A stretch of DNA of 64,000 nucleotides from Anadara kagoshimensis (taxonomy: Eukaryota; Mollusca; Bivalvia; Arcoida; Arcidae): NCBI GenBank assembly GCA_021292105.1, contig CM037871.1:55884866-55948865 (forward strand). The letters are read 5' to 3'. Of this stretch, positions 702 to 64,000 are shown piece by piece. How positions within the stretch are numbered: the stretch's first letter is position 1; each line of letters starts with the position of its first letter. Below the pieces are notes generated by a model, which worked only from the letters and a program-made list of their open reading frames with translations, did not search any database and was not told the DNA's origin. Position numbers and translations under genes: made by a program.

Positions 702-1624
702 CATATGTAAAAATAGTGAATAAATATAGAAACGGCGCCTCATAAAGTATAGTCCCTCGCGTGACCCCCGCAAACAAAATAAAGTTACTTCCCTTTGTCC
801 AGGTGGCGCTGTTGTGGTCATAATGGCATCCGACGACGCGATTTCAAACACAAAGACAAAAAGTATTCCGTTAATAATTTAAATGAATTTCTCAGAGCCA
901 GGAAAATTTATTGTGAGTTTGGATCTATAGAAATCGACCAAGTTAGCGTGCAAATATCTATATTTATTGCACGCTTACACCTCGGGGTTTATCGTTTATA
1001 TAATAATTCTATATATTGACTATGAAAACAAAATCACCTAATTCATGAAGTAATTTGTATACAAATCATAAAAGTAGTATCAGGATTTACTATGACAACA
1101 AGAACCACAAACATAACACTCCTAGTTTACGACACGATGACGTTATTTCTTAAAGTTTGCAGATCGTCAAAATCGTAACGCTATTGCTAATTTTGCCTAT
1201 ATCTTCGCATCAAATTACGCATTTAAAGTTTTATACCAAAAAATCTAGCATGGGTACATATGTTTTTTACTTTATATTTTCAGAAAATTTAAATTTTGAA
1301 CTACATTTTGTTAGTTTCTCAAAAACATGTAGGACAAACTGTTAAACTTTTAAGAGTCTAAAAAAGCGATTTCCTATTTAGCCTATGTAAAAATTTCTAG
1401 TTGTTACTTTTTTACGCTTTATATAGCTAAAGAAGCAAAAAGGGGACCCTGTGTTTGATTGCATCAAAAAGATTTACAAATATTTAAAAAAAATCAGAAA
1501 CTTGTAGGATAGTGCCAATTTGTACCATTTGGCCTTAAGCATTCCCCCTTAATTATTTATGTAAAATTCACCTCTTAGAGAAATAAAAAAAAATTAAGAT
1601 CATCATCGCCACCATTATCACTTT

Positions 1625-1671
<47 letters not shown>

Positions 1672-2159
1672 TAGTTTATTGAGCGGGCTAACAAAATAGA
1701 GCTGGTAGGGGCAGCAGCAGTGCCACCGCCATCAACATAAGCAAAGAAAAGTCATTCAAATGACCATTGTTGGAGTAACGGCTCCTTATCGACGCTCTGA
1801 TTATAATCTTATCTCTCGCTTTTACTTTCAACGTAGATAATTCATTTATAGCAATACGGATACTCCTCTTTTTTACTTCAATCTGTGACTTTAATAAAGT
1901 TTTCAAATGAAATAATTATTGGTTTGTATTTATTTCAACTTATATTACCGAAATACTGACAGGATGTCAAATAACACAAAGTCGGAAGAAAATTGAAAAA
2001 GTCGCAAATGGCGCGAGACCTTCTCACATAGTACCTGTTAAATTATAATCAAGCGTGCTAGAGAGGAAAATCTGGTAAAATGTAGCAGATACAAGCCGGC
2101 GATTCCATGGAAAATGTTATTGATACAGAAAAGTAATTTGTACGAATCTGTAACAAAGT
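702..2159. other. Non-coding AT-rich DNA with a (TTTA)n microsatellite
   Basis: I see no gene. A (TTTA)n microsatellite of about 12 units lies at about 1624-1672. Open frames here are short, lack recognisable domains and show no splice context. The rest looks like unique or decayed DNA. Confidence 0.5.
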
Positions 2160-2512
2160 GTAACAGGTAGGAAACAAAATGTAGTCGGACTGGAGATCGA
2201 ACCCTAGACCTCTTGCACTATAGGCGAGTGCTCTACCACTGAGCTACCCAGACCGCTACAACCACCCCACCCCCTGTTATTGTGAGTTTCCCACGGTCCC
2301 AGGCGGGAAATCTCACCAAATCCCCTAGGATGGACTTTATATGGCCACCTCATTGCTAGTCCATCACGTCCTAGGGCCACGCTGGCCACCAAACTGTAAC
2401 AGGAAGAGAAATATGCAGGATCTGACCGGAGATCGAACCCTGAACCTCTCTCGCTATAGGCGCGTTTACCACTGAGCTACCAAGACCGCTACAAAAGAAA
2501 CTGGAAGCAAAA
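2160..2512 (-). mobile_element. Dimeric tRNA-related SINE-like repeat
   Basis: Two tRNA-like modules on the minus strand (about 2190-2256 and 2424-2492) each contain an A-box-like GTAGCTCAGTGGTA region and a B-box-like GGGTTCGATCTC. They are separated by about 200 bp, and each is preceded on the + strand by GTAACAGG(T/A)AG. This fits a tRNA-derived SINE or a nested or dimeric copy. The second module lacks several positions of the first, so a functional tRNA is unlikely. Confidence 0.6.
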
Positions 2513-2877
2513 TAAGCCAACAAAATATTAAGTGTTTATTATTCTGTAAACCATTTTAACTTTCTCGATACGGAAATTGGATGAATATTTGGTATCAATA
2601 AAACCATTTTCGGAAACAAATTTACGACCATTACTTTCACGATTTTCACGATTATTTTGTCCTCGCGAAACTTATATGCACGCTAATAAATGTTCGTTTA
2701 CAGTAGGGTACATGGTTAGACTGAAACTCTCGACTTTGAACTGGTATATATGATATATTGATAGAAGATAACTTAATCTTTATTTGTCTTGATCATATCT
2801 TCTATAAGCTTATTTTTTTAAAGGAACTACATGTACATAATAATGCTCATTTGAAAACATAACAGTTCATGTCCGAA

Positions 2878-2932
<55 letters not shown>

Positions 2933-2987
2933 ACACACACACACTTTCTACATTCGCGAATTTCAGTGTAATACTTTTCCCTGTAGA
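2513..2987. repeat. Non-coding DNA with (CA)n microsatellite
   Basis: The stretch 2879-2943 is an almost pure CA repeat with one interruption (ACC). The flanks hold no recognisable gene. Confidence 0.8.
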
Positions 2988-3292
2988 TTTATTGAATGGA
3001 GTTTTACGTCCAGGCAAGATATTTCACTTATATCGAGACGTCACTAACTATAGGTGACGTGTCAGAATTAATTTTACATTCGCTATGCGCTTAGGGAAAT
3101 GTGCACACGGGACCTCGTTTATTTTAAGTTCTCATCCGAAAGAGCCGTGACTTTCATTTCGTAATGCCGAGTACTTGGCGAAAGAACAGTCACTACCTAC
3201 TTTCGAGTCTTGGGTCAGACCCAATCGGGGTTCGAACCCACGACTTCCCACTTACGGGGCGAGCACTCTACCAACTGAGCTACCGCAGAGGT
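2988..3292 (-). mobile_element. tRNA-derived SINE, diverged copy
   Basis: Minus-strand copy of the same SINE family as 7605-7948. The tRNA-like head (A box GTAGCTCAGTTGGTAGAG, B box GGGTTCGAACCCC) is at the right end, and the body with the GACGTCTCGATATAAG motif is at the left. It has several mismatches and an indel relative to the younger copies. Confidence 0.8.
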
Positions 3293-4740
3293 CTATGTGC
3301 AGGGTAGGTTTTAGGGTGTCACGTCTGTCGTGACACAGGACATCGGTTTTTAAGGTCTCTTGGCGAAAGAACTTCAAGTCTTGGTCAGAACCGAACTAGG
3401 TTTGTTACCACGACCTCCATGACCACATACGAAGTGAGCACTTAGTGGTCTTTACTTAATACATTTATAGTGTCATTGTCATATATACCTTTGTAGGTGG
3501 TGTATCAAAAGCAAATATGTATAAACCTGGCATCATACTTAACAAAAACATTAACAAAAGAACTCGAGAGCCAAATACCCCCGTTCCCAACATTTAATGT
3601 TTTTTCCACAACCTTGACCTTTCCTATATGACCTTGGTTCAAGGTTATGCGCACTTCTGGACCATGAAGATTATTCATGTGAAGATTTATGACAGTCGTC
3701 CAAAGCGGCTATGAGATATGGCCCGGACACGATTTATTAGTATCTTCTATCTCCTATAGGGGTTGCCATGTTAGTCTCAGTTGTAATACAAACAAGTACT
3801 TTATTTTGTACCAAACTTTACATCAACGGTTTGTATTGCAAGTTCACCTTTTAAGCAAATAGTCGGCTTAGAGTGGTGGCTTGGTGATGACTTAGCGCAT
3901 CTAAATAAGTTTGGAAGGCTAGTGTACTTATATTGACTTAGCTCTTCCACTGTAAAAAGAAATTTGCTTAAGCATTTGACGCAAACACATGTTTGGATCT
4001 TTTAAACTATTTTGTTAACAATATTGTCTACATAAATCAGGATTTCGGCATGTCATGTGTCATACCTAATTCAATTTACTTAATCAAACAGGAAAATAGT
4101 CCCATGTTCAAAAACCAATCCCAAAACAAATGTGAAAACTTTAAAAACTAGCAAATTAAACATGTGATCTTCGTCCAGGAAAGTGTGTTCAGGTGATACG
4201 GAAGGGTAAGAACCTTATGTCGTCTAGCAACCAACACCTGTCAGGTGTGAAATCAAAACTGAGAATAAAGGGAACACCGAACCATGAGCCGTGAAATATA
4301 TCTAAGATAATAAGGTGTTAATATTTTTTCATAAAGACCTTTGTTGTTAGGCAACCTGTTACGAAGGCTGACCAGCATGCCAGATTTTTTGATTCCATAA
4401 ATATCAAACCATCTTTTACAGAGTTATTGCCCCTAAAATATAACATTTTTGCAAACTTTCCTGGTTTTGTGGCTATTTACTTAAAACGTATTAGTGTGAT
4501 ATAAAAGCAATACATTGCAAAAATAATAAATGTGACATGCTAACTAGCAATGTTTGTATATACAATATAATGTTTCACAGAGGAGTTGGTTCCCAGGAAT
4601 ATCATTTTTGCCAAATTGTTATAAATAGATAAAAACAACAAGTTGTAAAAATAATCAACATGCTAATATTTTACTCTTAGCAAATGTTGTATACGAAGGT
4701 GTTGTAAATATAACCATTGACCTGTCTAGAAATGGCGTTT
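3293..4740. other. Non-coding DNA with decayed SINE and repeat pieces
   Basis: A decayed second SINE head lies at about 3350-3452. The stretch 4370-4440 is the inverse of 14180-14262, sharing CAGCATGCCAGAT and TTATTGCCCC, and so is part of another dispersed repeat. No gene is recognised. Confidence 0.5.
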
Positions 4741-4750
4741 ATAGTGCTAT

Positions 4751-4832
4751 AACTGCCATTGCCGTGCAAAGCAAACAAATCATAATTCGCTAACGCGCAT
4801 TATTCAGTTTGCTTTGCACGGCAATGGTAGTT
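4751..4832. repeat. 26-bp inverted repeat (hairpin) beside the minisatellite
   Basis: Arms 4751-4776 and 4807-4832 are complementary with one mismatch (core GCCGTGCAAAGCAAAC / GTTTGCTTTGCACGGC), separated by a 30-nt loop. It lies immediately left of the 39-bp minisatellite. Confidence 0.85.
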
Positions 4833-4840
4833 ATTGACAT

Positions 4841-7188
4841 GGATTGATATTTTTCTTTTTAATTGTGATTTAGACATAGATCGGTATGTTTGCTTTTTGG
4901 ATTTTGATTTGGATATGGACTGGTTTATTTGCTTTTTGGATTGTGAGTTGGACATGGATTTGTATGTTTGCTTGTTGGATTATGATTTCGATATGGAATA
5001 GTATGTTTGTTTTTGATAACTTTGCTTTGAGATTGTGAGTTGGACATGCATTGGTTTGTTTGTTTTTTGGATTGTAAATTGGACGTGGATTGGTATGTTT
5101 GGTTTTTTTGGGGTTGAAATTTGGACCTGGATTGGTTTGTTTGCTTTTTGGATTGTGAGTTGGACATAGATTGGTATGTTTCCTTTTTGGATTGTGATTT
5201 AGAAATAGATTGGTATGTTTGTTTTTTGGATTGTGAATTGGACATGGATTGCTATGTTTTCTTTTTGGATTGTGATTTAGACATAGATGGTGTGTTTCCT
5301 TTTTGGATTGTGATTTAGACATGGATTGGTATGTTTGGTATTTTTTGGATTGTGAGTTAGACATGGATTGGTATGTTTTGTTTTTGGATTGTCAATTAGA
5401 CATGGACTGTTATGTTTGCTTTATGGATAGTGATTTAGACATGGATTGGTATGTTTGTTTTTTGGATTGTGAGTTAGACATGGATTGGTATGTTTCGTTT
5501 TTAGATTGTCAATTAGACATGGATTGTAATGTTTGCTTTTTGGATAGTGATTTAGACATAGATTGGTATGTTTGTTTTTGGATTGTGATTTAGACGTGGA
5601 TTGCTATGTTTTCTTTTTGGATTGTGATTTAGACATAGATGGTGTGTTTCCTTTTTGGATTGTGATTTAGACATGGATTGGTATGTTTGGTTTTTTTTGG
5701 ATTGTGAGTTAGACATGGATTGGTATGTTTTGTTTTTGGATTGTCAATTAGACATGGACTGTTATGTTTGCATTTTGGATAGTGATTTAGACATGGATTG
5801 GTATGTTTGTTTTTTCGATTGTGAGTTAGACATGGATTGGTATGTTTTGTTTTTGGATTGTCAATTAGACATGGATCGTTATGTTTGCATTTTGGATAGT
5901 GATTTAGACATAGATTGGTATATTTGTTTTTTTGGATTGTGATTTATACATGGATTGCTATGTTTTCTTTTTGGATTGTGATTTGGACATAGATTGGTAT
6001 GTTTCCTTTTTTTATTGTGATTTAGACATGGATTGGTATATTTGTTGTTTGGATTGTGAGTTAGACATGGATTGGTATGTTTGTTTTTTTTTGGATTGTG
6101 AGTTAGACATGGATTGGTATGTTTTGTTTTTGGATTGTCAATTAGACATGGATTGTTATGTTTGCTTTTTGGATAGTGATTTAGACATGGATTGGTATAT
6201 TTGTTGTTTGGATTGGGGTTTAGACATGGATTGGTATGTTTGTTTTGTTTTTGTTTTTTTTGTTTTTTTTGGATTGTGATTTGGACATGGATTGGTATGT
6301 TTGCTTTTTGGGTTGAGATTTGGACATGGATTTGTATGTTTGCTTTTTTGATTATGATTTTGACATGGATTGGTATGTTTGTTTTTAAAAACTTTGCTTT
6401 GGGATTATGTTTTCGACATTGAATGGTATGTTTGTTTTATATATCTTTGCTTTAGGATTGTGAGTTGGACATAGATTGGTATGTTTTCTTTTTGGATTGT
6501 GATTTTAACATGGATTACTTTTTTTTGCTTTTTGGATTGTGATTTGGATATGGATTGGTATGTTTGCTTTTTAGATTGAGGTTTGGAAATGGATTGTTTG
6601 GTTTGCTTCTTGGGTTGTAATTTGGACATAGATTGGTATGTTTGGTTTTGGATTGAGGTTTAAACGTGGATTGGTTTGTTTGTTTTTTGGATTGTAATTT
6701 GGACATAAATTGGTATGTTTGCTTTTTGGATTGTGATTTGGACATGGATTGGTATGTTTTCTTTTTGGATTGTGATTTGGACATGGATGGTTTGTTTGCT
6801 TTTTGGATTGATATTTGGACATGAGTTGGTATGTTTGCTTTTTGAATTGTGAATTGGACATGGATTGATATGTTTGCTTCTTGGATTGAGGTTTAGACAT
6901 GGATTGTTTTGTTTGCTGTTTGGATTGTGATTTGAACAAGGATTGGTATGTTTGCTTTGTGGTTTGAGATATGGACATGAGTTGGTATGTTTGCTTTTTG
7001 GATTGTAAAATTGGCATGGATTGGTATGTTTGCTTTTTGGAAATAGGTTTGGACATGGGTTGCTTTATTTGTTTTTTGGTTTGTGATTTAGACATAGATT
7101 TGTATGTTTGCTTTTAGGATTGAGGTTTGGACATGGATTAGTTTGTTTGCTTTTTGGATTGAGGTTTGGACATGAATTGGTTTGTTTG

Positions 7189-7230
<42 letters not shown>

Positions 7231-7422
7231 ATTGTGCTTTCGACATGGATTGGTATGTTATTTTTATTACTTTGCTTAAGGGTTGTGATTTGGACATGAA
7301 TTAGTATGTTTGTTTTTTTGAATTGTGATTTGATCAAGGATTGGTATGTTTGCTTTTTGGTTTGAGATTTGGACATGGGCTGGGTATGTTTGCTTTTTGG
7401 ATTGTAATTTAGACATGGATTG

Positions 7423-7461
<39 letters not shown>

Positions 7462-7497
7462 ATTGTGATTTTGGACATGGATTGTATATTTGTTTTT
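4841..7497. repeat. 39-bp minisatellite with nine-unit higher-order repeat
   Basis: About 2.65 kb of a diverged 39-bp unit (core GACATGGATTGGTATGTTTG followed by CTTTTTGGATTGTGATTTG). Because 39 is a multiple of three and the unit lacks stops in some frames, both strands show long repetitive open frames: 13-residue units such as FLDCELDMDWYVC on + and MSKSQSKKQTYQS on -. I regard these as artefacts. Blocks at 5303-5593 and 5655-5942 match unit by unit, giving a higher-order period of about 352 bp, or nine units. Poly-T runs of about 30-40 nt interrupt it near 7190-7229 and 7426-7460. Confidence 0.9.
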
Positions 7498-7604
7498 GAT
7501 TAATCAAAAGTGCCTCGATTTAAGTCTGTTATAAAATAAGTTGATACTGTAATGCTTTAAAAAAAGAGTACCATTTCCCCTTGATGCAGAACAATAAACT
7601 AGAG

Positions 7605-7948
7605 TGAGTGAGTGAGTAATGGTGTTTAACGTCCCAGTCAAGAATATTTCACTTATATCGAGACGTCGCCAGCTATAGGCGAAGGTGCAGAAATTTTGCC
7701 TGTGCGTTGCGCTGATGGCATTATACAGCAGGGTTCTTTAGTGTGCCAAGCCCACCATGACACGGGACCTCGTTTATTTTAAGTTCCCATCCGAAAGAAC
7801 CGTGACTTTCATTTCGTAATACCGAGTGCTTGGCGAATGAACAGTCACTACCCACTTTCAAGTCTTGGGTCAGACCCGGTCGGGGTTCGAACCCACGACC
7901 TTCCACTTACGGAGCGAGCACTCTACCAACTGAGCTACCGCAGTGGTT
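7605..7948 (-). mobile_element. Full-length tRNA-derived SINE with 12-bp target duplication
   Basis: The element is flanked by a perfect AATAAACTAGAG duplication (7593-7604 and 7949-7960). On the minus strand it begins CCACTGCGGTAGCTCAGTTG and contains an A box, a B box (GGTTCGAACCCCGAC) and a body. It ends with GGGACGTTAAACACCATT followed by an (ACTC)n tail. The intact duplication indicates a fairly recent insertion. Confidence 0.92.
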
Positions 7949-7960
7949 AATAAACTAGAG

Positions 7961-8636
7961 GGTCTGTGGGACATGCTTCTCCAGAAAACTGTTGAACTGT
8001 AGTTTAAAATCAGGCAGTCTGATGTTGTAACATAAATACATTACGTAATCATCAAAAATAGCGACTGTAACTCCTGTATCACCCCCTCCCCCTTTTCTGG
8101 GTCCGGCGGTTTTTTTTTGTTTTTTTTTTTATAACAAGTCACAAATTAATACATATAAGGGCCACCTGTCGATAAAGGCCATTTTACTGGGTCCCTTGGG
8201 TGGCCTTTATTGACAGGTTTGACTGTAATTTTTCATCACAATTTTCAAGCTCCCGTTGGGACATTTTCAAATGCTTGGTCAAGGTTTGCAGAGATGGTTG
8301 TAATGAACTTAATATGTACGAAAGCCTATTTGGCTCAGTTTGGTAGAACATTATATGGCTGCTCTTATAAAGTGTCATAACTACATCCATACTGGGTCTC
8401 ATATTTAATAACGTATGTTTTATGGACAAACCGACGTAGTGACCTATGTTTCGACAAAACCGTTTATCAGTTACTAGATTTGACGTGAGGTATGTTACTT
8501 CATATAATGTTACCTTAAAATCACTACATTTGGCGTACAACTTGTTGTTACATATAACGTGTCCCTGTTACATATGGCGGAGATTTTTACTATTTTACAT
8601 ATAGCGGTATTACTCCATATATCGTAGTTACTACAT
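7961..8636. other. Non-coding DNA with a hairpin and TACATAT-rich motif series
   Basis: Arms 8165-8180 and 8202-8217 (CCTGTCGATAAAGGCC and its near complement) form a hairpin typical of a dispersed element. Between about 8480 and 8636 the motif (T/C)(T/A)ACATAT followed by a CG-containing trinucleotide recurs at 25-35 bp spacing. A 118-codon minus-strand frame (8184-8540) spans the repeat and has no recognisable domain, so I do not call it a gene. Confidence 0.5.
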
Positions 8637-8726
8637 ATGGAATGCCTCAACCACATTAAATACATAATATTCGCATTATGTATACATAATGCGAATTATG
8701 TATTTAATGTGGATGAGGCATTCCAT
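8637..8726. repeat. 90-bp near-perfect palindrome
   Basis: The two 45-nt halves are inverse complements with almost no spacer; the centre lies between 8681 and 8682. The outer ends read ATGGAATGCCTCA and TGAGGCATTCCAT, with only two or three mismatches near ACCACATT/AATGTGGAT and ATATTCG/CGAATTAT. Confidence 0.9.
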
Positions 8727-9245
8727 AGGTTGGACATCACATTATTAGACACATCAATATCATATATTATATTATATTGTACGAGTTTCGCGCATATTAA
8801 TTCGTCTCTTCTTCTTCTTCTTTTTTTATAGAATTATACTAATTTATTTATTTATACCGTGCATAATGTATACATTAAGGACTACTGAATTGTTAATATT
8901 ATAACTATAGAAACAGGATTAATATCCGTCTCTTAATTTTAATTGAGTTAAATTTACAATTTCGCTTTTTCGCTTATTTATTTATTTATTAAATAATTGA
9001 TGCCCTATCTGAATTCCGTATCGATAGGAATTATGTCAAGTGAAAATGTGGAAAAGCTGGAATAATAATTTATAATATTGTTGATAATAATAAACATATC
9101 CTCAAAACTGGCCAGTTATCAATTGTCTAACAAAAATAATAATCTAGGACATACTATTCGAAATAATATCTAAATTAACGGTAATATAAACACCCCTGCT
9201 GTTAAAGCACAACACATGATGAAATAGGTCACCTAATGTGAAACT
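8727..9245. other. AT-rich DNA, nothing recognised
   Basis: Short CTT and TTTA low-complexity runs near 8805-8860 and 8975-8995. No gene or clear repeat structure seen. Confidence 0.5.
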
Positions 9246-9790
9246 CGTCTATTTTCGACATTGTATATCAGTGGACCAGCACTATTTTAAAAGCGTTTGC
9301 TCTGGCCACAGAGATAAATAACCTAGCATCCATATCGGAAGTCCATGTGTTTAAAATACTTATTTGAGTAAATATTATTGTGTGTTCATATGACATTTTA
9401 GTAAAATTTGCATGCCTATAGCCCCTTTCACATGCGCTGATTTACTCATGGGGTGCAAATTTTGCATATATGCAAAATCTGCAACCGGGGGTAAATTTGA
9501 GCATGTGAACGCAATTGCATATATGCAAAAGTAAATATACACATGTGCAAATATACACCCGAGTGCAAATTTACACCTACTCAGACCAGATGCAAATTTA
9601 CTTTTGCATATGTGTATATTTACTCCTAGTGTATTTTTCGTCATGTGAACGCGTAGCTTAAGCCCCATTTATACGGCGAGAATTGCATACCTAAGTATTT
9701 TTACTCATATGTAAATTTACTCATGTAAGCAAAAGTATATTTTGCTTTGCGTTCATACATAATTTATGTACCATAAGTAAATTTGAAGTT
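9246..9790. repeat. Interspersed AT-rich repeat (GCAAATTTRC-rich), copy 1
   Basis: This segment shares GACATTGTATATCAGTGGAC and GTAAATATTA with 10809-10990. It is full of near-palindromic TTTGCATATGCAAA and GTAAATTTAC words. Its AGCCCC...CGCATGTGAA edges recur at about 20535-20605 in inverse orientation. The stretch 9661-9690 (AGCCCCATTTATACGGCGAG) is the uninterrupted counterpart of the insertion site of the 8.3-kb element. Confidence 0.7.
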
Positions 9791-10808: not shown

Positions 10809-11196
10809 TCTGTGACATTGTATATCAGTGGACAACACTAACAAACAATTTTTCTTGGTACAAGGCAGATTACAAACACCCATATTCACTCTTGCACCAC
10901 ATGGACCTTAATGAACATTAAACAATAGAGATAAATAACCTGGCATAAGCCCATGTGTTTAAAATTATGTGAGTAAATATTAGTGCGTTCATACGACACC
11001 GTAGCAAAATTTGCACACATAAGTATAAAATACTTACATACTATAGCAAATTTGCACTTTGTCCCTACTAGGTGCAAATTTACTTACATGAGTAAAATTT
11101 GCGTATATGCAAAGTTGTTCATACGACACAATTTGCATATGTGAATAAACTTACATATGAGTAAAAAATACTTAGGTATGCAATTCTCGCCGTATA
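10809..11196. repeat. Interspersed AT-rich repeat, copy 2, interrupted by the 8.3-kb element
   Basis: Homologous to 9246-9790, with the same opening words and the same GCAAATTTGC-rich interior. It ends in CAATTCTCGCCGTATA at the left edge of the 8.3-kb element and resumes at 19474 with GTATAAGTGGGGCTT. Confidence 0.75.
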
Positions 11197-11650
11197 CACT
11201 GTGGTACAGCGTACACGGGATATTAAAGCATAAAATGAGCAAAACAGTTAGTGTAAACAACACCAGCGGGAGTCGAAAGCCGATTTTTGACTTATCTGTT
11301 CATTTTAACATGTGATGGTGTATTGGGGCATCAATCGGATACATAAACGTTTCTATTGAAATAGTTAACTGCATCTGATACACTGTTTAAACTTTAAAAC
11401 AAATTGATAAAGCGCAAGTGCTCACCTGTGATTTTGCCGTGGCCGGGAGTTTCTGTTCAATATTTCAATTTTCACTTCTTGATTAAAAATTCTGAAGCGT
11501 ACAATTCCTCTAGGATGCTAAGAACTACATGTCGACCAAATTTCAGCTCAATGTATTGCGAAATAAAGGAGCATGAGACGTTGAAAGATCGACGTGGTGT
11601 ACTGGGAATTGATTCTCATCACCGGTTTAGTGTACTGGGAATTGCAAAAT
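11197..11650. repeat. Left terminal inverted repeat of the 8.3-kb element
   Basis: Matches the inverse of 19005-19473 with few mismatches up to about 11585. It then diverges in a zone carrying repeated GTGTACTGGGAATTG words (near 11597 and 11630). It contains a 107-codon open frame that is also open in other copies; I treat this as incidental. Confidence 0.88.
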
Positions 11651-11889
11651 TACGGTTACCGGGAATCGTGTATAACATTATTTTCAAGTCCCAATTTTTA
11701 AAGAAATTGGGGATTGCGAATGTATGATACAGTTTGTATGCATGGTGCATACAATAATAAATAAGTTTCACTGTGCAAGTTTATATTAGGTGTTCATAGT
11801 AAAGGCTCTAACCTTGATTTCAAAATTGAATTAGGTAGATCGCCAATATTAAGAGACATAGAGTGATTCCATCGTTTCATTAAAATGTT

Positions 11890-12570
11890 TAACACTTAAG
11901 GATATCCAAACTAATATGGTATCCACACTAGGAAAATATGACCTTCGAATTTAAAAGTAAAAATGTGGGTTGTGGGATTTAAACGCAACAGAAAGGCCCT
12001 TGTTCTAGAAGGTCTGTCATTGATGCAACCCCAAAAAAGGTCAATAAAGTTTATGATATTGTTACGACTGACAAGCGAGTTACAGAATGGTATGTAGCTA
12101 GTTGGCATTTCACAGGGAATACATGTATTACATTTAATTCTGACAGAAAATCTTGCAATGAGAAATGCTTTCAGTTGGGTACCAACTTACCAAGGCATCT
12201 GACAATTGGTCAGAAGCACATCAAGTGCACTTTGTTGTGTGCTTTTTTAGAGATAAGTTACTATGTATTAAACGTGGGTTTATCAATTCACCCCAGTGGC
12301 CAAAGTTTACACTTGATCACCCTGAAAAAAGACCAATACTGTTACATCAGCTGGAGAGGGTATGACCTCGGCTTCCAGTGATGCTGATCATAATCTGGTG
12401 GTAGGTTATCTCCAAAAGGGACAAACAATCAATGACACATACTATTCATCACTTATGATGCAGTTACGGAAAATTATTAAATTCAAAAAATGACGGAAAG
12501 CTCAGTAAAGATGTGCTGTTCCGCTAAAAGTAGCCTATTTAAATCAGGAAATAATAGTGAAACTGCAGCC
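11890..12570 (+). pseudogene. Decayed mariner-like transposase fragment A
   Basis: Conceptual frames, shifted several times, give pieces typical of mariner transposases: a linker like VTTDKRVTEWYVAS, an LT-x2-QKHIKCTL segment, then GYLQKGQTIND-YY and a KLSKDVLF-like segment. Stops and frameshifts disrupt every frame. The copy at 61205-61865 shows the same arrangement and also preserves DETWVHH, the first catalytic Asp context. The fragment was therefore already part of the element before it multiplied. Confidence 0.75.
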
Positions 12571-12910
12571 AGTTGGTGCTTGGTATATGTGTAATACCTT
12601 ATGTTTATTATTATTAGTACTTGTTATTGTCTATAGAATGATTAAAAATTGTCGATTCAAGGTAAAATATATCACGTTTTAAACAGCATCACTTATGAGT
12701 GGTCGGAATTGTGCACCGGTAACGTTATCAGTATGTAGGTTGCATTTACATAGAACATACTGGCTTCAATAAACAAGCTGTTCTTATTTAGAGGTGGTCT
12801 TTACGTTAATGCCACTAGACTCAAAAAGACAATATAGGCATTATAGAAAGATGTATGTAGAATGTGTAGAGTTTTTTATATCTCATTTTACGAGCGACCA
12901 TCCTAGTATC

Positions 12911-13290
12911 CCATTTCAGATTGAGAGACCGCGGTTGCCTAATGAATAAGACATCAGTCTACAAAACAAATCCAGGGTCTCTCACCGCTGTGTGTTCGAG
13001 TACCACTCAGACCACGTGCGGGAAAGTGATTTTTCCTTGCCGTTGGCCTTTACTGGTGTACCTGGTATCAGTATAATGTGCCTGGGGAGTGGTACGCTTG
13101 TCTGTGGCGTACTGACTGTGAGCTGGCACGTTAAAGTCGCCATGTGTGCGCCCTAGTACAAAGCAGACCATAAAACACACTCGTACTTCACATGCATACA
13201 CGAACTTGTTCATAGATTAATAAAATTAATAGTTCTCGTCGCGAATAGCTGGAAAATTGCTGATGCGACGTTAACCAACCAACCAACCAT
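12911..13290 (+). mobile_element. tRNA-derived SINE (second family) inside the 8.3-kb element
   Basis: The head GACCGCGGTTGCCTAATGAA with B-box-like GTGTTCGAGTACCACTC is followed by a body. It ends in CTGGAAAATTGCTGATGCGA and an (AACC)n tail. The same SINE sits at the same place in the second element copy (62214-62450) but lacks about 120 bp there, so it travelled with the element. Confidence 0.8.
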
Positions 13291-13799
13291 TTCCGATTGT
13301 CCGACACGGCCCTTATTTTTGCGCCTTGTTTCAATACATGTTTTATACCCGGATACAACATTACACGCGTATCGAGGTGTCAGTATAGTTTTAGGCACTT
13401 TTTTGCAGAGCGTAACGGGATACATATTTTTGAGTTGCACGTCCGATATTAAGGAATTTAAAAAAATGTATATAAAATTTACCAAGTGCATTATTTCTGA
13501 AATGTTATGGTTATGATAAATAGACTAGGCGATTTTTCAGAAAAGACGTCGTTTAAAGAGGAAGAGGCATTTTTTAGTAAAAGCAAACCATATATCCTTC
13601 TTACCTAATTTGGGTGTGCTGAGTTCGAAAATGGCGGATACCAAGCTGAAAAATTGCTCTAAGTAGGTCAAAATTTAAATACAAAATGGCCGGCAAAATC
13701 AAAAAGGTTTTTTGCGTAAGTTGATTTGGAAGTTGTTTTAGTAGCAAGAAACAGCTATTAATCATATATTGTAATATTCCAAGGCTTACTTAGGTGTTA

Positions 13800-14270
13800 A
13801 TGAAAAGAAAATTTAAACAAAAGGTCCATGGGCCTTATTGCTCACCTGAAAACATTTAAAAGATACTGAAATTTTAGAGGCAACAACATCTTCGTTGATT
13901 ATCATATATAAATTTGCTATGGAGTTAGATCTTGGCACGTTGATTATTTTTGCAACTTGGTGCTTTTATTAATAATACTTATTAAAACAAATATGGTAAA
14001 AAAACAAATTCGTAAAAAATTATACTCCAGGGGTAACATCTCCTCCATGGATCATCATATTTTTACAAACGTTGCTACTTAGCTTGTCATGTTCGTGTTC
14101 TTCAATGCATTGCGCTTAATGAACACAAATAGTTTTCAAGTAAATAGTCACAAAACCAGCAAAATTTGCAAAAAGAAATATTATTTTCCAGGGGCAATAA
14201 CTCTGAAAAAGATGGTTTGATATTTATGAAATCAAAAGATCTGGCATGCTGGTCCGCCTTCGTCTCAGGT
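13800..14270 (-). mobile_element. Fragment of a Helentron-like repeat end, minus strand
   Basis: CCATGGGCCTTATTGCTCACCTGA at about 13827-13850 (two overlapping short motifs) is the inverse of the 3' end of the AGCTCACCTGA family seen at 32889-32920. The following sequence includes a dispersed block (14180-14262) also found inverted at 4370-4440. Confidence 0.5.
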
Positions 14271-14558
14271 GGTCTAGCGACAAAGATCATTCATAAAACT
14301 ATATATATATTTGTCACCCTTCTGACAGAAATTTCTCGCAAGCTGATTGGTTAACTTGTCGGGGTACATAGAACTATGTTCGGAAATGAACGCACGCGAC
14401 GTTTAGCGGTAAAAGGGAAGTAACTTGTACATCGTTGACGTCTAGTTACGGTAAACAAACATGGCGACAACATACGATCTAGTCATACAAAATACGAAGT
14501 GGAAGTTAAAAAGATCCAATTGGTAACGCTTTGAAGGGTGACAAAAACGTTATTCAGA

Positions 14559-14662
14559 GCTTTCGGCAGGTTACACGGCCACATGTACCCCGTCAAAGAT
14601 GAATGTACCCTGAGCTGCATAATCTGTGACGGGGTACATGGGGCCGTGTAGCCTGCCAAAGC
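14559..14662. repeat. 36-bp inverted repeat hairpin
   Basis: Arms 14559-14595 and 14627-14662 share GGGGTACATG, GGCCGTGTA and GCCTGCC complementarity with three or so mismatches. They enclose a 31-nt loop. Confidence 0.85.
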
Positions 14663-15284
14663 CTTGTATAACTTAGCTATAATAGGCTATCCTGGACAAG
14701 TTCACATATTTAACTTTAGCCAGTTTTCAAAGTTTTTGCTTTTGCTTTTGGGTTGTAATTTGAACATGGGACTGTATGTTTCTGTTTAATTAAATGAATT
14801 GAATTAAGTATGACACATAACATGCTGAAACACTGATTTATGTAGGCCTAGACCAGAATCTGAATGAAATAGCTTCTGTGTTTGCACCAAATGCTTACGA
14901 TTTTTTTACCAGAGGAAGAGCCAAGTAGATATAACTAAACTAGCATTCAAAACCTATTTAGAGGTGCTAATTCATCACCGAGCAACTCTTAGCTGACTTT
15001 TTGCTAAAAATGTGAACTTGCATTACAAGTTGTAAACACTACACTTGGTTTTATTAAACTGGTAAAAAGTATGCAGGTTAAATGATATGTCTTGAGCCTT
15101 CTGTTAAAAAAGGAGATAACCGCTGATGTCCCTTTTCAACCCCTCTATTTCCTGATTGTGTATCCGAAGACCAGTGTCGTTTTGTAAGTTAATATCAACA
15201 AGGTATTACTCCTAAGTAAATAAGCCTTGTGAATTGGCAAATGTAAAGTGCAGAATCCAATATTTGCACAAGAACGGTTAAGCA

Positions 15285-16335
15285 CCTAAGGCTATCCATA
15301 CTGATATGAAAGCAACACAAGGAAAGGTGCCCCTTGATAGGCAATAGTAAAAAGTGGTTGGCGGATTATAAACGGCAGAACATAAATGATGACCCCAGTC
15401 CTGGAAGGCATGCCATTGTTGCAACCCAAAAATGGTCAATAGAGCTTTGTTTTCATTCATGGTAGCCGAAACAAACATTGGCTGCTTATTTCTGAGAAAT
15501 CCTTTTCTTTCAAAAAGAGTTGGCATTTCACAAAGAAGAATACACTTCATTCTGATATCCTGCAATGAGAAAGCTTGGAGCCCGTTGGGCTTCTGGCAAT
15601 TAATCAGAAGCAAACAAGATGCACTTTGACGCGTGTTAATTAAAAAATTTTAGTGGTAGATACTGCTAGCTCCCATACGAGCTTTGTTACTATAGAGGCA
15701 AAGCATCCCAAGGCCCAAACAACAGTCTAAACAATGAAACCACCTCCACCAATTAAGGCAGAGAAAGACTGTTCCATTATCCGGAAAGGTTGTGACAACG
15801 GTTAGCTTAGATATTGATGGTATTCTGGTAGTAGATTATTTCCAAAAGGGACAAAAAATAAATGTCATATTATTTGTATTATTTGTGAGGCTGTTACGGA
15901 ATAATATTTTACTCAAGTGTTGTGGAAAACTCAGTAAAGGTGTCTTGGTCTACTAGCACAATGCTACCATTGCCCTGGCTGCAATTAACGATTGTGGCTT
16001 TAGATTTTAAATTGATTGAGTGGCCAGTTTATTACTTAAGCTTGCACATCAGTCTTTCGTCTATTTCCAACACTGAAAACGGTCATTTACTTTACCCAGT
16101 TTTATAGTCAGATGATGATGATATATATTTATTGGAGGGCGTTCTGACTTTGAAAGAAAATGAATTCTTTAAAAGTTACATTGAGTTCCTTAAACACCGT
16201 TGGCAAAACTGTACAGAAACTGATACTATGTTGAAAAATATAGTTATCGGCAAAGTTCAAACCATTTCAATTTGGTAAATTGACATTTACAACAAAGGGT
16301 TCTACATACTATTTTGCAAGAACATGTGGTAAACT
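15285..16335 (+). pseudogene. Decayed mariner-like transposase fragment B
   Basis: Frame-shifting conceptual translation gives mariner-like segments in order: a KKWLADYKRQ linker with DDPSPGR-like sequence (about 15346-15410); YLSRG-like and QLR-type pieces; then an ALAAINDCGF segment (about 15968-16005) and SDDDIYLLEGVLT plus LKHRWQNC (about 16110-16210), which match the usual transposase C-terminus. Many stops and gaps; not functional. It lies in the part of copy 1 that is absent from copy 2. Confidence 0.75.
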
Positions 16336-16679
16336 CTATATAAAAGACTGTTCTTGAATAGGCTCTTTCTGCATTTCAAACACAAGTTTCGATTTTGACT
16401 ATTAATTTATTAATTTCACGCTATGATCTGAATAAAGCAGTGTTTCAGTATAGTTTTGGTCATGATCTTAATTTAATCATGTAGATTTCATCGGTGCAAT
16501 ATGCAAAAGGCACACATAATGAACAAACCTTAATTATAACCTCCACTTTATTTTTAGAAGTTCTTTTAAATTTGGGTTTTAACATTTAAACTTCAGTTTA
16601 GCCTCTTCCATTTTAATTAGCAACCTCAAGTTATGCTGAAATGTTAAAAAGAACAAAGTACCATCTTTTGCTAAACATG

Positions 16680-17545
16680 TAACTTCAATAACACTGTGAA
16701 ATTATATGCATAAATTGAAACAGTCGCCATTTTGTTTTTGGAATATGGGTTAAGCTTTACCTTCTGAATGACTTTTGTTGCAAGTTTTGAATTTAGTACT
16801 CTCAAAATTATATTTCAAAAGCATGTTATCAATTTGCCACCCCAAGTAACATTAATTTTTTTGCATTGGTACACTATGGATTTAAGTCGCCATTTTGTTT
16901 TGGAATTATGGGTTCAAAAACTTAAAATTTAGCTTGGTATCCGCCATATGTGCATTCATCACCTTCGAATTATGTTGAATAAAGCATGCTACCAACTTTT
17001 ACCAAAATTTGTCAACCCAAGTGACATATTTCGTGTATTTTGCGTTGACCCAGTACACATGAATTTTAGTCGCCATTTTGTTTTTGAAATTATGGTTAAG
17101 AAACTAAAAATTTAGCTTGGAATCCGTCATTTTTCAAATTCAGAAAACTCGAATAATGAGAAATTAGCATGTTACCAACTTTTACTAAAATTTGCCACAC
17201 AATGAACATTTTTGCAATGGTACACTATAAATTTAAGTCGCCATTTTGATTTTGGAATTATGGGTTCAAAATCTCAAAATTGAGCTTTGTATCGGCAATT
17301 TTTGAATTCGGCATCCTCAAATTGTGTTAAATAAATCATGTTACCAACTTTTACCAAAATTTGTCAACCCAAGTATCATTTTTGCATTGATTCATCATTA
17401 ATTTTAGCCGCCATTTTGTTTTTTGAATTATGGGTTCAAAAACTCAAAATTCAGCTTGGTATCCGCCATTTTCGAATTCAGCACCCTCGAATTAGGTTAG
17501 AAAAAGATGTTACCAACTTTTACTAAAAAATGCCGCTTCAAGTCA
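16680..17545. repeat. Satellite of about 165-180 bp, five units
   Basis: The word CGCCATTTTG recurs near 16725, 16888, 17071, 17239 and 17406. Each is followed by GGAATTATGGGTTCAAAA, AGCTTGGTATCCGCCAT and ACCAACTTTTACCAAAATTT words, defining five diverged tandem units. Absent from the second element copy. Confidence 0.85.
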
Positions 17546-17754
17546 CATTTTCTGAAAATGTGCCTAGTCTAAAACTAACAGGTCAAAATGGCAGTGTCTA
17601 AAAACTGGAAATTTTGAATACACGTAGATGAAATTTGAGCTTTCATCGTGGATTTGCAGAAAATCGAATCGGCTGACATTAGGATTTTTTCTATATTATT
17701 TGATAAAACTATATTTGCTTTCTGAACACATTAATTTAAAAAAAATCTATCGAG

Positions 17755-18350
17755 CGGATTTTTGAGAACCAAAGCATCAGTATACGGCGCCTTGTTGAAG
17801 CGTTTATGTCAAAAGATGATTTTCTTTTGCGTCTAAAGACAATAAAGCACAGAGTCGTCAGTGGATAGGGCCTGGGTCCCCTAGGCCAAAGAAGGTTAAA
17901 AGCATTAGTCTACTGGCAAGGTGATGACCACAGTATTTTGGGACGCAAAAGGTGTTATTGTGTGTGACTTTTAACCAAAGAGAAGTACAATGATAACTGG
18001 AATGCACTATGCAAACTTGCTAGACCACACGAGAACTGATACCTGTGAAACCGCCGCAACAGGACAAAGCAAGAGTACACAGTTGCAAAGTTACAATGAA
18101 GGCTGTGGGGCGAAATACCCGTGACCATCTGCCTAGCTCGTAGCGACTTCTTCTTTTCCCAAAATTGAAAAATGATACCTGAGGGCGTCATTTCAGGTCT
18201 GACCAAGAAGTCATGAAGACAGTTGAGGAGTGTGTCAATGGAAATGACCCTTTCTTTTTCAGATCTGGGGTGATGGATAAGTGCATCACACTAGAGGGCA
18301 CTGAATTACATTAAAAAGAAGAGGTGGATCTAATCCGGAAAAGAGGTTAA
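17755..18350 (+). pseudogene. Decayed mariner-like transposase fragment C
   Basis: Segments resemble the catalytic and C-terminal half of a mariner transposase: VFWDAKGVIVCDF (second Asp context), ANLLDHTRTD, a VHSCKVTMKAVGRN segment, and FFFRSGVMDKCITLEGTEL followed by KEEVDLI. Each is separated by stops or frameshifts. Copy 2 has the equivalent at 62875-63515. Confidence 0.8.
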
Positions 18351-18999
18351 GCTGGTTTCTTATTGATTGGCCCTCGTAAATAAAAATTCAAAATAAACAT
18401 ATGACACTATGAACTATGTTAAAAATGAAAAAATGTGTTATATTGTTAAAACTTTTTATTTATAAATCAGATTCAAGACGTTTGATTTTACTCTCGTCTC
18501 ATTTGTGGATCTGTTTTACACCAGATACCTCCTTTCGACGACTGTCTCATCTTGATCTTTGATATAAATAAGTCATATTTTCGCTGGTCGATTCGATCTA
18601 ATGACATTAGGTTAAATATTTTAAAAGATTTCTCAAATTGTAATCTTCATTTTCCTGCTCAGTTCCAAACTACAAAGTTTTTTTCTTTGCTTTCACTAGT
18701 TGCATTTGCTATGACACCGTCAAACTTGAACTTAAGAACGGATTATATTTTGACATTACACATAGGCCTTTCTAATGGTTTAGTAAACACTTGGATCATA
18801 TATCGGGGAAATGTGGGTTAAAGATGTGGTTTATGTATGTTTCATCCACATCTCGTCTATATTGCATTATTAATAATTACAGATGTTGAAGATTTTCACT
18901 AGATAATTAATTGTTTTGTTTGTCATTGAAAAACAAGTATAAATTCTATATAAATTCATTAAAACATGAAAATCGCACAGCTGGCAAGATATTTGAATC
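18351..18999. other. Inner non-coding part of the 8.3-kb element
   Basis: AT-rich sequence shared with copy 2 (63520-64000), including an 89-codon open frame at 18552-18821 that is not preserved without frameshifts in copy 2. No gene recognised. Confidence 0.5.
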
Positions 19000-19004
19000 C
19001 TCAA

Positions 19005-19473
19005 TTCCCAGTACACCTACTTCCTCCTTAATTGCCAATACCCAGTACACCTTTTTGCAATTCCCAGTACACCGCATGTTATCCTCCAACGTCTCCTGCT
19101 CCTTTATTTCTCAATACATTGAGCTGAAATTTGGTCGACATGTAGTTCTTATTATCCTAGAGGAATTGTACACTTCAGAATTTTTATTTATCAGGCGAAA
19201 TTTGAAATATTGGAAAGAAACTCCCGGCGACGGCAAAATCACAGGTGAGCACTTGCGCTTTATCAATTTGTTTTAAAGTTTAAACAGTGTATCAGATGCA
19301 GTTAACTATTTCAATAGAATCATTTATGTGTCCGATTGATGCCCCAATACACCATCGCATGTTAAAATGAACAGATAAGTCAAAAATCGGCTTTCGACTC
19401 ACGCTGGTGTTGTTTACACTAACTGTTTTGCTCATTTTATGCTTTAATATCCCGTGTACGCTGTACAACAGTG
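19005..19473. repeat. Right terminal inverted repeat of the 8.3-kb element
   Basis: Inverse of 11197-11650. The inner edge carries three CAATTCCCAGTACACC-type words, against two on the left arm. Confidence 0.88.
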
Positions 19474-19706
19474 GTATAAGTGGGGCTTTATTTTACACAC
19501 GTCCGATGCTCTATGTATTGCGCCATTGCCCAGTTTAGTTAAAGCGCGCCAAATTAACATAAAAATGGCTGTCCAGAGGAAGACTGCCAATTAGTTTAAA
19601 CAATATTTTATTTAATTCATAAATACATAAGTAAAATAAACATAATAGACTGCCAATTAAGTAATAGCCACCTGCTTTTGGACGCCTAGTGGCTGTGAAC
19701 AATTTT

Positions 19707-20860: not shown

Positions 20861-20863
20861 GAT

Positions 20864-20935
20864 GGTTTCGCTGGGGGTCGAACCCAGGACCTTTCGCGTG
20901 TGAGGCGAACGTGATAACCACTACACTACGAAACC
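20864..20935 (-). tRNA. tRNA-Val: tRNA-Val (anticodon CAC)
   Basis: The minus-strand transcript folds into a complete cloverleaf. The acceptor stem GGTTTCG/CGAAACC is perfect. The D arm contains TAGTGTAGTGGTTATCAC. The anticodon arm TTCGC-CTCACAC-GCGAA carries CAC. The T arm is CTGGG-TTCGACC-CCCAG. The A box and B box fit a Pol III internal promoter. A run of eight T in the transcript (20853-20860 as A on +) follows four nucleotides after the 3' end and is a good Pol III terminator. It is not embedded in a SINE body, so I call it a real gene. Confidence 0.95.
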
Positions 20936-35655: not shown

Positions 35656-59269
<23,614 letters not shown>

Positions 59270-60503: not shown

Positions 60504-61204
60504 AACTGTGGTACAGCGTACACGGGATATTAAAGCATAAAGTGAGCAAAACAGCCAGTGTAAACAACACCAGCGTGAGTCCAAAGTCGATTTTTGACTT
60601 ATCTGTTCATTTTAACATGTGATTGTGTATTGGGGCATCAATCGGACACATAAACGTTTCTATCGAAATAGTTAACTGCATCTGATACACTGTTTAAACT
60701 TTTAAACAAATTGATAAAGCGCAAGTGCTCACCTGTGATTTTGCCGTCGCCGGGAGTTTCTGTTCAATATTTCAATTTTCACTTCTTAATTAAAAATTCT
60801 GAAGCGTACAATTCCTCTAGGATGTTAAGAACTACATGTCGACCAAATTTCAGCTCAATGTATTGCGAAATAAAAGAGCAGGAGACGTTGAAAGATCGAC
60901 GTGGTGTACTGGGAATTGATTCTCATCATTGTTTTAGTGTACTGGGAATTGCAAAATTACGATAACCGGGAATTGTGTATAACATTATTTTCAAGTCCCA
61001 ATTTTTAAAGAAATCGGGGATTGCGAATGTATGATACAGTTTGTATGCATGGTGCATACAATAATAAATAAGTTTCACGGTGCAAGTTAATATTAGGTGT
61101 TCATAGAAAAGGCTCTAACCTTGATTTCAAAATTGAATTAGGTATATTGCCAATATTAAGAGACATAAAGTGATTCAATAGTTTCATAAAAATGTTTAAC
61201 ACTT

Positions 61205-61865
61205 AAGGATATCCAAACTAATATGATATCCACAATAGGAAAATATGACCTTCAAATTTAAAAGTAAAAATGTGGGTTGTGGGATTTAAACGCAACAGAA
61301 AGGCCCTTGTTCTAGAAGGTCTGTCATTGATGCAATCCCAGAAAAGGTCAATAAATTTTATGATATTAATTGTTACGACTGACAAGCGAGTTACAAAATG
61401 GTATGTAGCCAGTTGGCATTTCACAGGAAATACATGTATTACATTTAATTCTGACAGAAAATCTTGCAATGAGAAATGCTTTCAGTTAGGTACTAATTTA
61501 CCAAGGCATCTGACAATTGGTCAGAAGCACATCAAGTGCACTTTGTTGTGTGCTTTTTTCAGAGATGAAACGTGGGTTCATCATTTAACCCCAGTGGCCA
61601 AAGTTTACACTTGATCACCCTGAAAAAAAACCAATACTGTTACATCAGCTGGAGAGGGTATGACCTCGGCTCCCAGTGATGCTGATCATAATCTGGTGGT
61701 AGGTTATCTCCAAAAGGGACAAACAATCAATGACACATACTATTTATCACTTAGATGCAGTTACGGAAAATTATTAAATTCAAGAAATGGGGGAAAGCTC
61801 AGTAAAGATGCTGTTCCGCTAAAAGTAGCCTATTTAAATCAGACAAATCTTAAGAGAAGTTAGTG
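61205..61865 (+). pseudogene. Decayed mariner-like transposase fragment A, second copy
   Basis: Frame-shifted pieces VTTDKRVTKWYVAS, GQKHIKCTLLCAFFRDETWV followed by HHLTP (first catalytic Asp context), and GYLQKGQTINDTYYLSL. Better preserved around DETWVHH than the first copy but interrupted by stops. Confidence 0.78.
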
Positions 61866-62213
61866 AAACTGCAGCCGGTTGGTGCTTGGTATATGTGTAA
61901 TACCTTATTTTCATTATTATTAGAACTTGTTCTCGTCTATATAATGATTAAAAATTGCCGATTAAAGGTAAAATATATCACGTTTTAAACAGCATCACTT
62001 ATGAGTGGCCGGAATTGTGCACCGTTGTCAGTATGTAGGTTGCATTTACATAGAACATACTGGCTTCAATATACAAGCTGTTCTTATTTAGAGGGGGTCT
62101 TTACGTTAATGTCACTAGACTCAAAAAAGACAATATAGCATTATAAAAACATTTATGTAGAATGAGTTTTTTTATATCTCATTTTACAAGGGACCATCCT
62201 ATCCTATTTTCGA

Positions 62214-62450
62214 TTGAGAGGCCGCGGTGGCCTAATGAATAAGACACCAGTCTACAAATCCAGGGTCTCTCACCGCTGTGTGTTCGAGTCCCACTCAGAC
62301 CACATGTGGGAAAGTGGTTTTTCCTTGCCGTTGGCCTTTACTGGTTTACCTGGCATACACGAACTTGTTCATAGATTAATAAAATTAATAGTTTTCGTCG
62401 CGAATAGCTGGAAATTTGCAGATGCGACGTTAACCAACCAACCAACCCAT
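62214..62450 (+). mobile_element. tRNA-derived SINE (second family), internally shortened
   Basis: GAGGCCGCGGTGGCCTAATG head and GTGTTCGAGTCCCACTCAGA B box; ends GATGCGACGTTAACCAACCA. Lacks about 120 bp present in the copy at 12911-13290. Confidence 0.8.
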
Positions 62451-62874
62451 TTCCGATTGTCCGACACGGTCATTATTTTTGTGCCTTGTTTCAATACATG
62501 TTTTATACCCGAATACAAAATTACACGCGTATCGAGGTGTCAGTATAGTTTTAGGCACTTTTTTGCAGAGCGTAACGGAATACATATTTTTGAGTTGCAC
62601 ATCCGATATTAAGGAATTAAAAAATGTATATAATATTTTACCAAGTGCATTATTTCTGAAATACTATGGTTATTCGCGTAGTAATATGATAAACTAACAG
62701 GCCTAAAATGGCAGTGTCTAAAAACTGGAAATTTTGAATACATGTACATGAAATTTGAGCTTTCATCGTGGATTTGCAGAAAATTGAATCAGTTGACATT
62801 AGGATTTTTCTATATTATTTGATAAAACTATATTTGCTTTCTGAACACATGAATTTAAAAAAAATCTTTCGAGC

Positions 62875-63515
62875 GGACTTTTGACAACCAAAGCATCAGT
62901 ATACGACGCCTTGTTGAAGCGTTTATGTCAAAAGATTCTAAATAAAAGACTGTATACGAGATTTTGGTACAATAATATAAGCCAGACAATGAAGCACAGA
63001 GTCGTCAGTGGATGGGGCCTGGGCCCCCTAGGTCAAAGAAGGTTAAGAAGCATTAGTCTACTGGCAATGTGATGGCCACAGTATTTTGGGACGCAAAAGG
63101 TGTTACTGTGTGTGACTTTTAACCAAAGAGAAGTACAGTGATAACTGGAGTGTACTATATGCAAACTTGCTAGACCACCCGAGAACTGATATCCGTGAAA
63201 CCGCCGCAACAGGACAACGCAAGAGTACACAGTTGCAAAGTTACAATGAAGGCTGTGGGGCGAAATACCACATTCTGCCTAGCTCGTAGCGACTTCTTTT
63301 CCCAAAATTAAAAAATGATACCCGAGGACGTCATTTCAGGTCTGACCAAGAAGTCGTGAAGACAGTTGAGTGTGTCAATGGAAATGACCCTGTCTTTTTC
63401 AGTTCTGGGGTGATGGACAAGTGGATCACACTAGAGGACACCGAATTACGTTAAAAAGAAGAGGTGGATCTAATCTGGAAAAAAGGTTAAGCTGGTTTCT
63501 TATTGATTCGCCGTC
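62875..63515 (+). pseudogene. Decayed mariner-like transposase fragment C, second copy
   Basis: Same order of broken pieces as 17755-18350, including the TATTTTGGGACGCAAAAGG stretch (VFWDAKG context) and the CACTAGAGGACACCGA C-terminal region. No usable frame. Confidence 0.75.
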
Positions 63516-64000
63516 GTAAATAAAAATTCAAAATAAACACATGACAAAAAAAAAATGAAAAAAATGTGTTATATTGTTAAAACTTTTTATTTATAAATCA
63601 GTTTTTCAAGACGTTTACTCTCGTCACATTTGTGGATCTAAAACTGCTTCCGACGACTGTCTCATCTTGACCTTTGATATAAATAAATCCTATTTTAGTT
63701 GGTTGATTCGATCTAATGACATTAGGTTATAAAATATTTTAAAAGATTTCTCAAATTGTAATCTTCATTTTCCTGCTCAGTTCCAAACTACAAAGTTTTT
63801 CCCCTTTACTTTCACTAGTTGCATTCGCTATGACACTGTCAAACTTTAACAATTTAAGAACGGATTCTATTTTGACATTACACATGGGTCTTTGTAATGG
63901 TTTGGTAAACACTTAGATCTCTCTCAATCCACATATGTGTTTAAGATATGGTCTATGTATGTTTCATCTTTATCTCGTTTATAATGCATGAATAATAATT

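Follow-up and report, generated by a model that had tools for sequence, protein, structure and literature searches.

Transib transposons carry CAC tips of the heptamer type, with the consensus CACWRTG. Neither they nor RAG-like elements usually have inverted repeats as long as 415 bp. In the Drosophila Transib families hopper and transib2, the target duplication is 5 bp and the target motif is CCANTGG (PMC3276498). Protostome RAGL transposons start with CAC, generate 5-bp duplications and have reported non-autonomous forms, and the tip consensus given for mollusc RAG-like elements is CACTWMCAAACKTYKBB (PMC7204232). In the available parts of both sources, 5 bp is the Transib/RAG-like duplication value (PMC7204232, PMC3276498). 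The available part of PMC12730594 describes hAT5 with 5-bp duplications, CACTA/EnSpm families with CAC..GTG termini and 3-bp duplications, and the CMCT clade (EnSpm-Mirage-Chapaev-Transib and relatives), whose members generally have CA..TG ends and duplications of 2-5 bp.

The window, a 64,000-nucleotide stretch of the Anadara kagoshimensis genome, contains an element with the tips CACTGTG/CACTGTT and with GTATA on both flanks, both as reported in the initial annotation (Table 1). Its inverted repeats, put there at about 460 bp, are about 415 bp each in our alignment (416 columns, 93.3% identical). The annotated 8.3 kb holds for the element as it stands, but it is not the length of the family because the inner segment is a nested insertion, and the 8.3-kb unit was rejected. 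The nested element has the ends TAGACTAGGC..GCCTAGTCTA and is flanked by AAA on both sides; its counterpart site is empty in copy L010 and in the second copy in the window. Thus, the window element is a ~4.2-kb transposon interrupted by a foreign 4.05-kb element. The match of the rejoined flanks to the inverse of 9660-9690, an unoccupied relative of the insertion site, was also reproduced. Positions 11164-11196 are the exact reverse complement of 9670-9702 (33/33), and the right flank TATAAGTGGGGCTT shows, by eye, one difference from the inverse of 9660-9673. The second copy lacks the first base of its left tip and shows no 5-bp duplication.

Table 1. Positions of the element and related features in the window
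Feature	Position	Strand	Remarks
Whole element, nested insertion included	11197-19473	+	8277 bp
Left GTATA, 5-bp target duplication	11192-11196	.	
Right GTATA, 5-bp target duplication	19474-19478	.	
Left terminal inverted repeat	11197-11611	+	tip CACTGTGGTACAGCG
Right terminal inverted repeat	19058-19473	-	tip CACTGTTGTACAGCG (inverted, at 19473)
Nested foreign element	13521-17571	.	4051 bp; breakpoints read from sequence
Unoccupied relative of insertion site	9660-9702	-	single GTATA
Second family copy	60505-64000	+	extends beyond the window to ~64.6 kb

The 24-nt tip has 540 exact matches in the host genome, all with the heptamer CACTGTG, while a reversed-pattern control has none. Among 100 of these 540 places listed, 80 constitute 40 convergent pairs, 22 of which span 4.1-4.4 kb. 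Within 15 kb, the other 20 lack an exact partner, and divergent neighbours are absent. Family members are mostly 4.2-4.3 kb long, with inverted repeats of ~415 bp and the tips CACTGTGGTACAGCG. These precise inverted-repeat ends are common to many copies, as in non-autonomous DNA transposons with terminal inverted repeats.

An exact 5-bp duplication is present in 39 of 47 two-ended copies. Twenty of the 47 were taken as pairs in list order, with earlier-fetched ones skipped and two exact tips required. L025 is outside the 47, as its right end is absent from the fetched stretch. The eight copies without an exact duplication are L021, L026, L033, the second window copy, and four of the 20 in the second sample. 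The flanks of L033 are inverted, not direct. The pairs L059/L060 and L061/L062, whose flanks are shared, probably represent a single duplicated region; they were entered as two pairs, one of them exact. When the left flank of one copy is set against the right flank of another, the 5 bp agree in 2 of 380 comparisons (second sample, 20 pairs only). The tips against their control, the duplications and this low background together exceed chance. It is an abundant non-autonomous DNA transposon family, usually with a 5-bp duplication.

The left 1250 bp of 22 copies of the first subfamily are on average 98.1% alike. The window aside, 40 copies were listed, and the 20 fetched first had the highest scores among them; their closeness is therefore biased. 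The compared copies are young and the family is recently amplified. Hundreds of tips, with a divergence of a few per cent where compared, indicate that a matching transposase was recently at work in A. kagoshimensis.

The family shows no recognised transposase of its own. Nine frames of at least 89 codons in L010 have no match in Pfam. The comparison of L010 with L032, which represent two subfamilies, gave no consistent excess of third-position substitutions in 16 frames, leaving out the poorly aligned middle (~1400-2100). In most frames substitutions are nearly even across codon positions; two short frames favour the third position (6/10/16 and 10/10/18). The longest frames of other fetched copies showed, by eye, no recognised coding capacity. 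Among ~25 fully read copies, neither an autonomous copy with the family ends nor a RAG1L-RAG2L pair between them was seen; with 540 exact tips in the genome, this is weak evidence. Interior pieces of 1.8-2.0 kb from five longer pairs contained, by eye, no transposase. Those of L038 and L040 are family-like over most of their length, that of L039 has a single 0.3-kb match to subfamily B, and those of L037 and L041 have no match to the family. The L041 piece contains one LINE-like frame.

Searches for other families with the same tip gave no result. CACTGTGGTACA with four excluded bases occurs at 89 places, compared with 48 for the control. Fifteen of these 89 are in one tandem array (C3:13474000-13474930), and no convergent pair within 20 kb was seen by eye. 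The 15-nt tip with four excluded bases has one place in the genome, and the 24-nt tip with five excluded bases has one, which is the left end of a pair already known. IMG/VR viral contigs have no match to a 20-nt tip, and CACTGTG as a word is absent from the literature matches listed, as far as their available text goes.

CACTA/EnSpm elements share the CAC..GTG termini, but they make duplications of 2-3 bp, against 5 bp here, and were rejected. Long inverted repeats are also found in Mutator-like elements and Galileo. In the available text, maize Mu has repeats of ~215 bp and a 9-bp duplication. Galileo makes duplications of 7 bp. Both differ from the 5 bp of this family.

The best single explanation, with a probability of about 0.5, is a recently amplified non-autonomous cut-and-paste family that depends on a transposase from elsewhere, the best guess being one of the CMCT clade. 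This guess follows from the CA..TG ends and 2-5-bp duplications typical of CMCT and from 5 bp being the Transib/RAG value. A DDE transposase would act in trans; it would cut at the CAC tips, and the excised element would enter the target DNA at a cut staggered by 5 bases. Against this guess are the lack of a transposase between the ends read, the AT-rich duplications without CANTG, the ~415-bp repeats, the eight of 47 copies without an exact duplication, and the 5-bp duplication of hAT5.

A narrower form of the CMCT explanation, in which a Transib/RAG1-like transposase reading the RSS-like heptamer CAC(A/T)GTG moves the family, is possible but doubtful. The tip CACTGTG fits the Transib consensus and, as its reverse complement, gives the RSS heptamer CACAGTG. 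CAC start and 5-bp duplication are shared with protostome RAGL transposons, and the latter with Transib, as far as the sources describe them. Copy L022 carries an unrelated insert with CACAGTG tips and ATATA on both sides. A RAG1-like open frame is present on contig 8 (PF12940, E 3.3e-7; PDB RAG1 chains from E 2.1e-5). It is the only match to the RAG1 model in the whole genome (C8:56669592-56669981). The surrounding 10.3 kb have no match to the family repeats, and inverted CA..TG ends with a duplication over 3 bp are likewise absent there. Inverted matches over 40 bp around it shift two bases at a time and therefore look like dinucleotide runs. The 10.3 kb include a 160-bp stretch 80% like the L010 interior (1919-2077), and the locus contains one 8-nt CCACAGTG. 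The contig 8 protein has only two matches in the window and fetched copies (E 2.2 and 7). The family tip departs from the mollusc consensus after CACT (PMC7204232); by eye, positions 1-4, 10, 11 and 14-16 agree, and 5-9, 12, 13 and 17 disagree. The duplications are AT-rich with CANTG in none of 39, in contrast to C|CANTG|G in the two Drosophila families (PMC3276498); the initial annotation had called the AT-rich duplication atypical for the Transib/RAG-type group. The ~415-bp repeats and the lack of a transposase between the ends read are further differences. Of the earlier proposal of a non-autonomous relative that a Transib/RAG-like transposase may mobilise, the non-autonomous nature, the CAC tips and the 5-bp length in most of the copies, with no many-copy group of another length, were upheld. 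The mobilisation was not, and neither an autonomous copy with these repeats nor a RAG1-core transposase between them was found in the copies and the locus above.

The usual hAT ends are YARNG, whereas the family tip is CAC, with C as its third base. It is unlikely that a hAT5-type transposase moves the family, although hAT5 shares the 5-bp duplication (PMC12730594) and the available part of a mollusc survey puts hAT next after TcMar among its richest DDE/D groups (PMC10294476).

A superfamily without a described 5-bp member, or an undescribed superfamily, is likewise unlikely. Long repeats, AT-rich duplications and the 5-bp stagger jointly match no family named in the available parts of the literature compared (PMC7204232, PMC12730594, PMC10045372, PMC3276498), but the missing enzyme counts for little given the share of copies read. 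A pairing of inverted repeats into the 8.3-kb structure by chance or in the assembly, which the 20 unpartnered tips would fit, is refuted by the copies already read, as dozens of insertions have the same ends and duplications and an empty-site relative exists.

The family is well defined and unusually long for a non-autonomous one, and is useful mainly as bait for its enzyme. Once that enzyme is identified, it should be clear whether the combination of RSS-like ends, 5-base stagger and AT-rich targets is part of the RAG/Transib branch or has a separate origin. It is quite improbable that a living Transib/RAG1-related recombinase, perhaps a relative of the contig 8 frame, recognises CAC(A/T)GTG at the 415-bp repeats and prefers AT-rich targets. 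If so, hundreds of young insertions would record RAG-type activity that lies beyond the Transib and RAGL lineages described so far.

The window element carries inverted repeats at 11197-11611 and 19058-19473 (93.3% identity over 416 columns) and is flanked by one GTATA per side. The initial annotation had proposed an empty-site relative, and it was recovered. Positions 9670-9702 are the exact reverse complement of the 33 bases ending at the left tip; beyond them the relative resembles the right flank over 14 bases with one difference and carries a single GTATA, both as judged by eye. The proposed unit length of 8.3 kb is not upheld, because a nested insertion accounts for it. The window element is colinear with L010, a 4246-bp copy, with this 4.05-kb segment as the sole exception. 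The inverted ends of the segment are imperfect (75% over 130 columns), its internal repeats lie ~170 bp apart, and parts of it match 3831-4696 in inverse orientation at 73-75%. Elsewhere in the window, the frames at ~4870-7115 and 49320-49800 are built of repeated units, which suggests tandem repeats; the former sits in a stretch with strong GC skew.

Coordinates of features in the window and of the RAG1-like locus
Feature	Position	Strand	Ends or basis
Window element	11197-19473		left tip CACTGTGGTACAGCG; right tip, inverted, CACTGTTGTACAGCG
Nested insertion	13521-17571		own ends TAGACTAGGC..GCCTAGTCTA; AAA either side; from sequence
tRNA match	2183-2253	-	above Rfam gathering score
tRNA match	20863-20935	-	above Rfam gathering score
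RAG1-like open frame	G000:C8:56668092-56671481 (L029), frame 1162-3390	-	PF12940, E 3.3e-7

The genome (1,115,223,567 bases, 36 contigs) was searched with the left 509 bp, and 40 scored matches were listed from 943 candidates; each of the 40 starts at the tip or at most 5 bases ahead of it. Twenty copies, 10 kb apiece, make up a first batch. Both ends are present in 19 of them, with lengths of 4.2-4.4 kb in 17, 7.0 kb in one and 7.5 kb in one. Among the copies so read, size above 4.3 kb is inserted DNA. The insert in copy L009 encodes a DDE_3 transposase (E 8.2e-15), and different inserts are found in L022, L025, L030 and L034. The L025 insert (1461-8952), inside a family copy, has direct repeats of ~0.88 kb at its borders, 97% identical.

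Exact matches to the 24-nt tip number 279 in forward and 261 in reverse orientation across the genome, against 0 for the reversed control. Among the first 100 tip places listed, 80 form 40 convergent pairs, with no divergent neighbours closer than 15 kb. The pairs span 4.1-4.4 kb (22), 4.85-5.0 kb (8) or over 5.5 kb (7), and the remaining three span 379, 2492 and 4576 bp. At 379 bp, L043 is a miniature form, flanked by ATTAC on either side. A second subfamily comprises L031-L033, and its identity to the first over the left 1250 bp is 88.6%. In L031 and L032 (4.9 kb) the middle is unlike that of the first subfamily, and the second-subfamily middle has a frame that by eye resembles a Penelope-type reverse transcriptase; the scanned piece of L032 gave no Pfam match.

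Pairwise identity across the left 1250 bp averages 98.1% (range 92.7-100%, 231 pairs) among 22 copies of the first subfamily, that of the window included; this mean is biased upward because most copies were picked as best hits. None of nine L010 frames has a Pfam match. Of 16 frames compared between L010 and L032, most carry nearly equal numbers of substitutions at the three codon positions, and two short ones may lean toward the third.

The 5-bp target duplication described in the initial annotation recurs in most copies examined, being exact in 39 of 47. The first batch contributes 17 exact cases among its 19 two-ended copies; adding the window element, L043 and the copies L030-L034 (four exact out of five) gives 23/26. 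A second sample consists of 20 pairs from contigs 1-3: the duplication is exact in 16, and in 0/16 does the match extend past 5 bases. Flanks differ by one base in L026 and L059/L060. They do not match in L021, L033, three more pairs of the second sample and the second window copy (from 60505, running past the window end), which is without a 5-bp duplication. L033 (G000:C1:2104643-2110774) has inverted flanks, CCCTTATG..CATAAGGG, in place of a direct duplication, and is possibly a rearranged insertion. When left flanks in the second sample are set against the right flanks of other copies, 2/380 combinations agree. The duplications have a G+C content of 20.5%, and their context leans toward a palindrome, with a preceding pyrimidine in 30/39 and a following purine in 32/39.

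The probability that a CMCT-clade transposase moves the family is about one half. The clade in general has CA..TG ends and 2-5-bp duplications (PMC12730594). According to the same source, hAT5 likewise makes 5-bp duplications, as the family does; hAT5 or other enzymes take the probability left over by the CMCT clade. A Transib/RAG-like enzyme proper, counted within the CMCT share, is a less likely mover than the clade as a whole: the tip CACTGTG is the RSS heptamer CACAGTG reverse-complemented, the stagger is 5 bp and a RAG1-like open frame exists on contig 8, but Drosophila Transib families prefer CCANTGG (PMC3276498) whereas CANTG occurs in 0/39 duplications here, and the tips diverge after CACT from the protostome RAG-like consensus CACTWMCAAACKTYKBB (PMC7204232).

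The setting of the contig 8 frame speaks against such an enzyme: the frame is the only match in the genome-wide RAG1-model search, and the 10.3 kb around it contain no family repeat. Neither CA..TG inverted ends with a duplication >3 bp nor other transposon ends were recognised around it in this interval. The frame has 743 codons within the locus and 832 by the genome-wide search. By eye, it has acidic, CxxC and HxxxH positions where the RAG1 pattern places them.

The 2789-bp insert in L022 (G000:C14:31793448-31803447) has 74-bp inverted repeats, ATATA on either side and CACAGTG tips, the RSS heptamer itself. It is a candidate second 5-bp family, seen once, and its ATATA duplication is unconfirmed because the empty site in L010 is without ATATA. 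At G000:C13:21783120-21789528, 0.56 kb from a family copy, a P-element-like transposase frame of 790 codons (its TNP-like RNaseH match, at E 6.4e-5, narrowly misses the cut-off) is convergent with a 1049-codon PIF1 helicase having a PHD finger. The pair is enclosed by 45-bp inverted repeats (89%), around which no target duplication was recognised.

Genome-wide patterns that kept the tip but excluded the bases following it in the family brought up no other family with this tip; such patterns would miss a partner that shares any single excluded base. It is therefore probable that an autonomous partner has an even longer part of the end in common with the family, departs from it inside the first 12 bases, or has been lost. 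No autonomous copy was found among the ~25 copies read at full length.

Dozens of copies now confirm the observation as real. No such family is named in the literature examined; as far as that literature shows, it is new and of a known kind. Its ends are fixed, most copies carry 5-bp duplications, its multiplication is recent and no coding capacity was recognised in it. A transposase produced elsewhere would bind both long repeats, cut at CAC and join the ends over a 5-base stagger at AT-rich sites.
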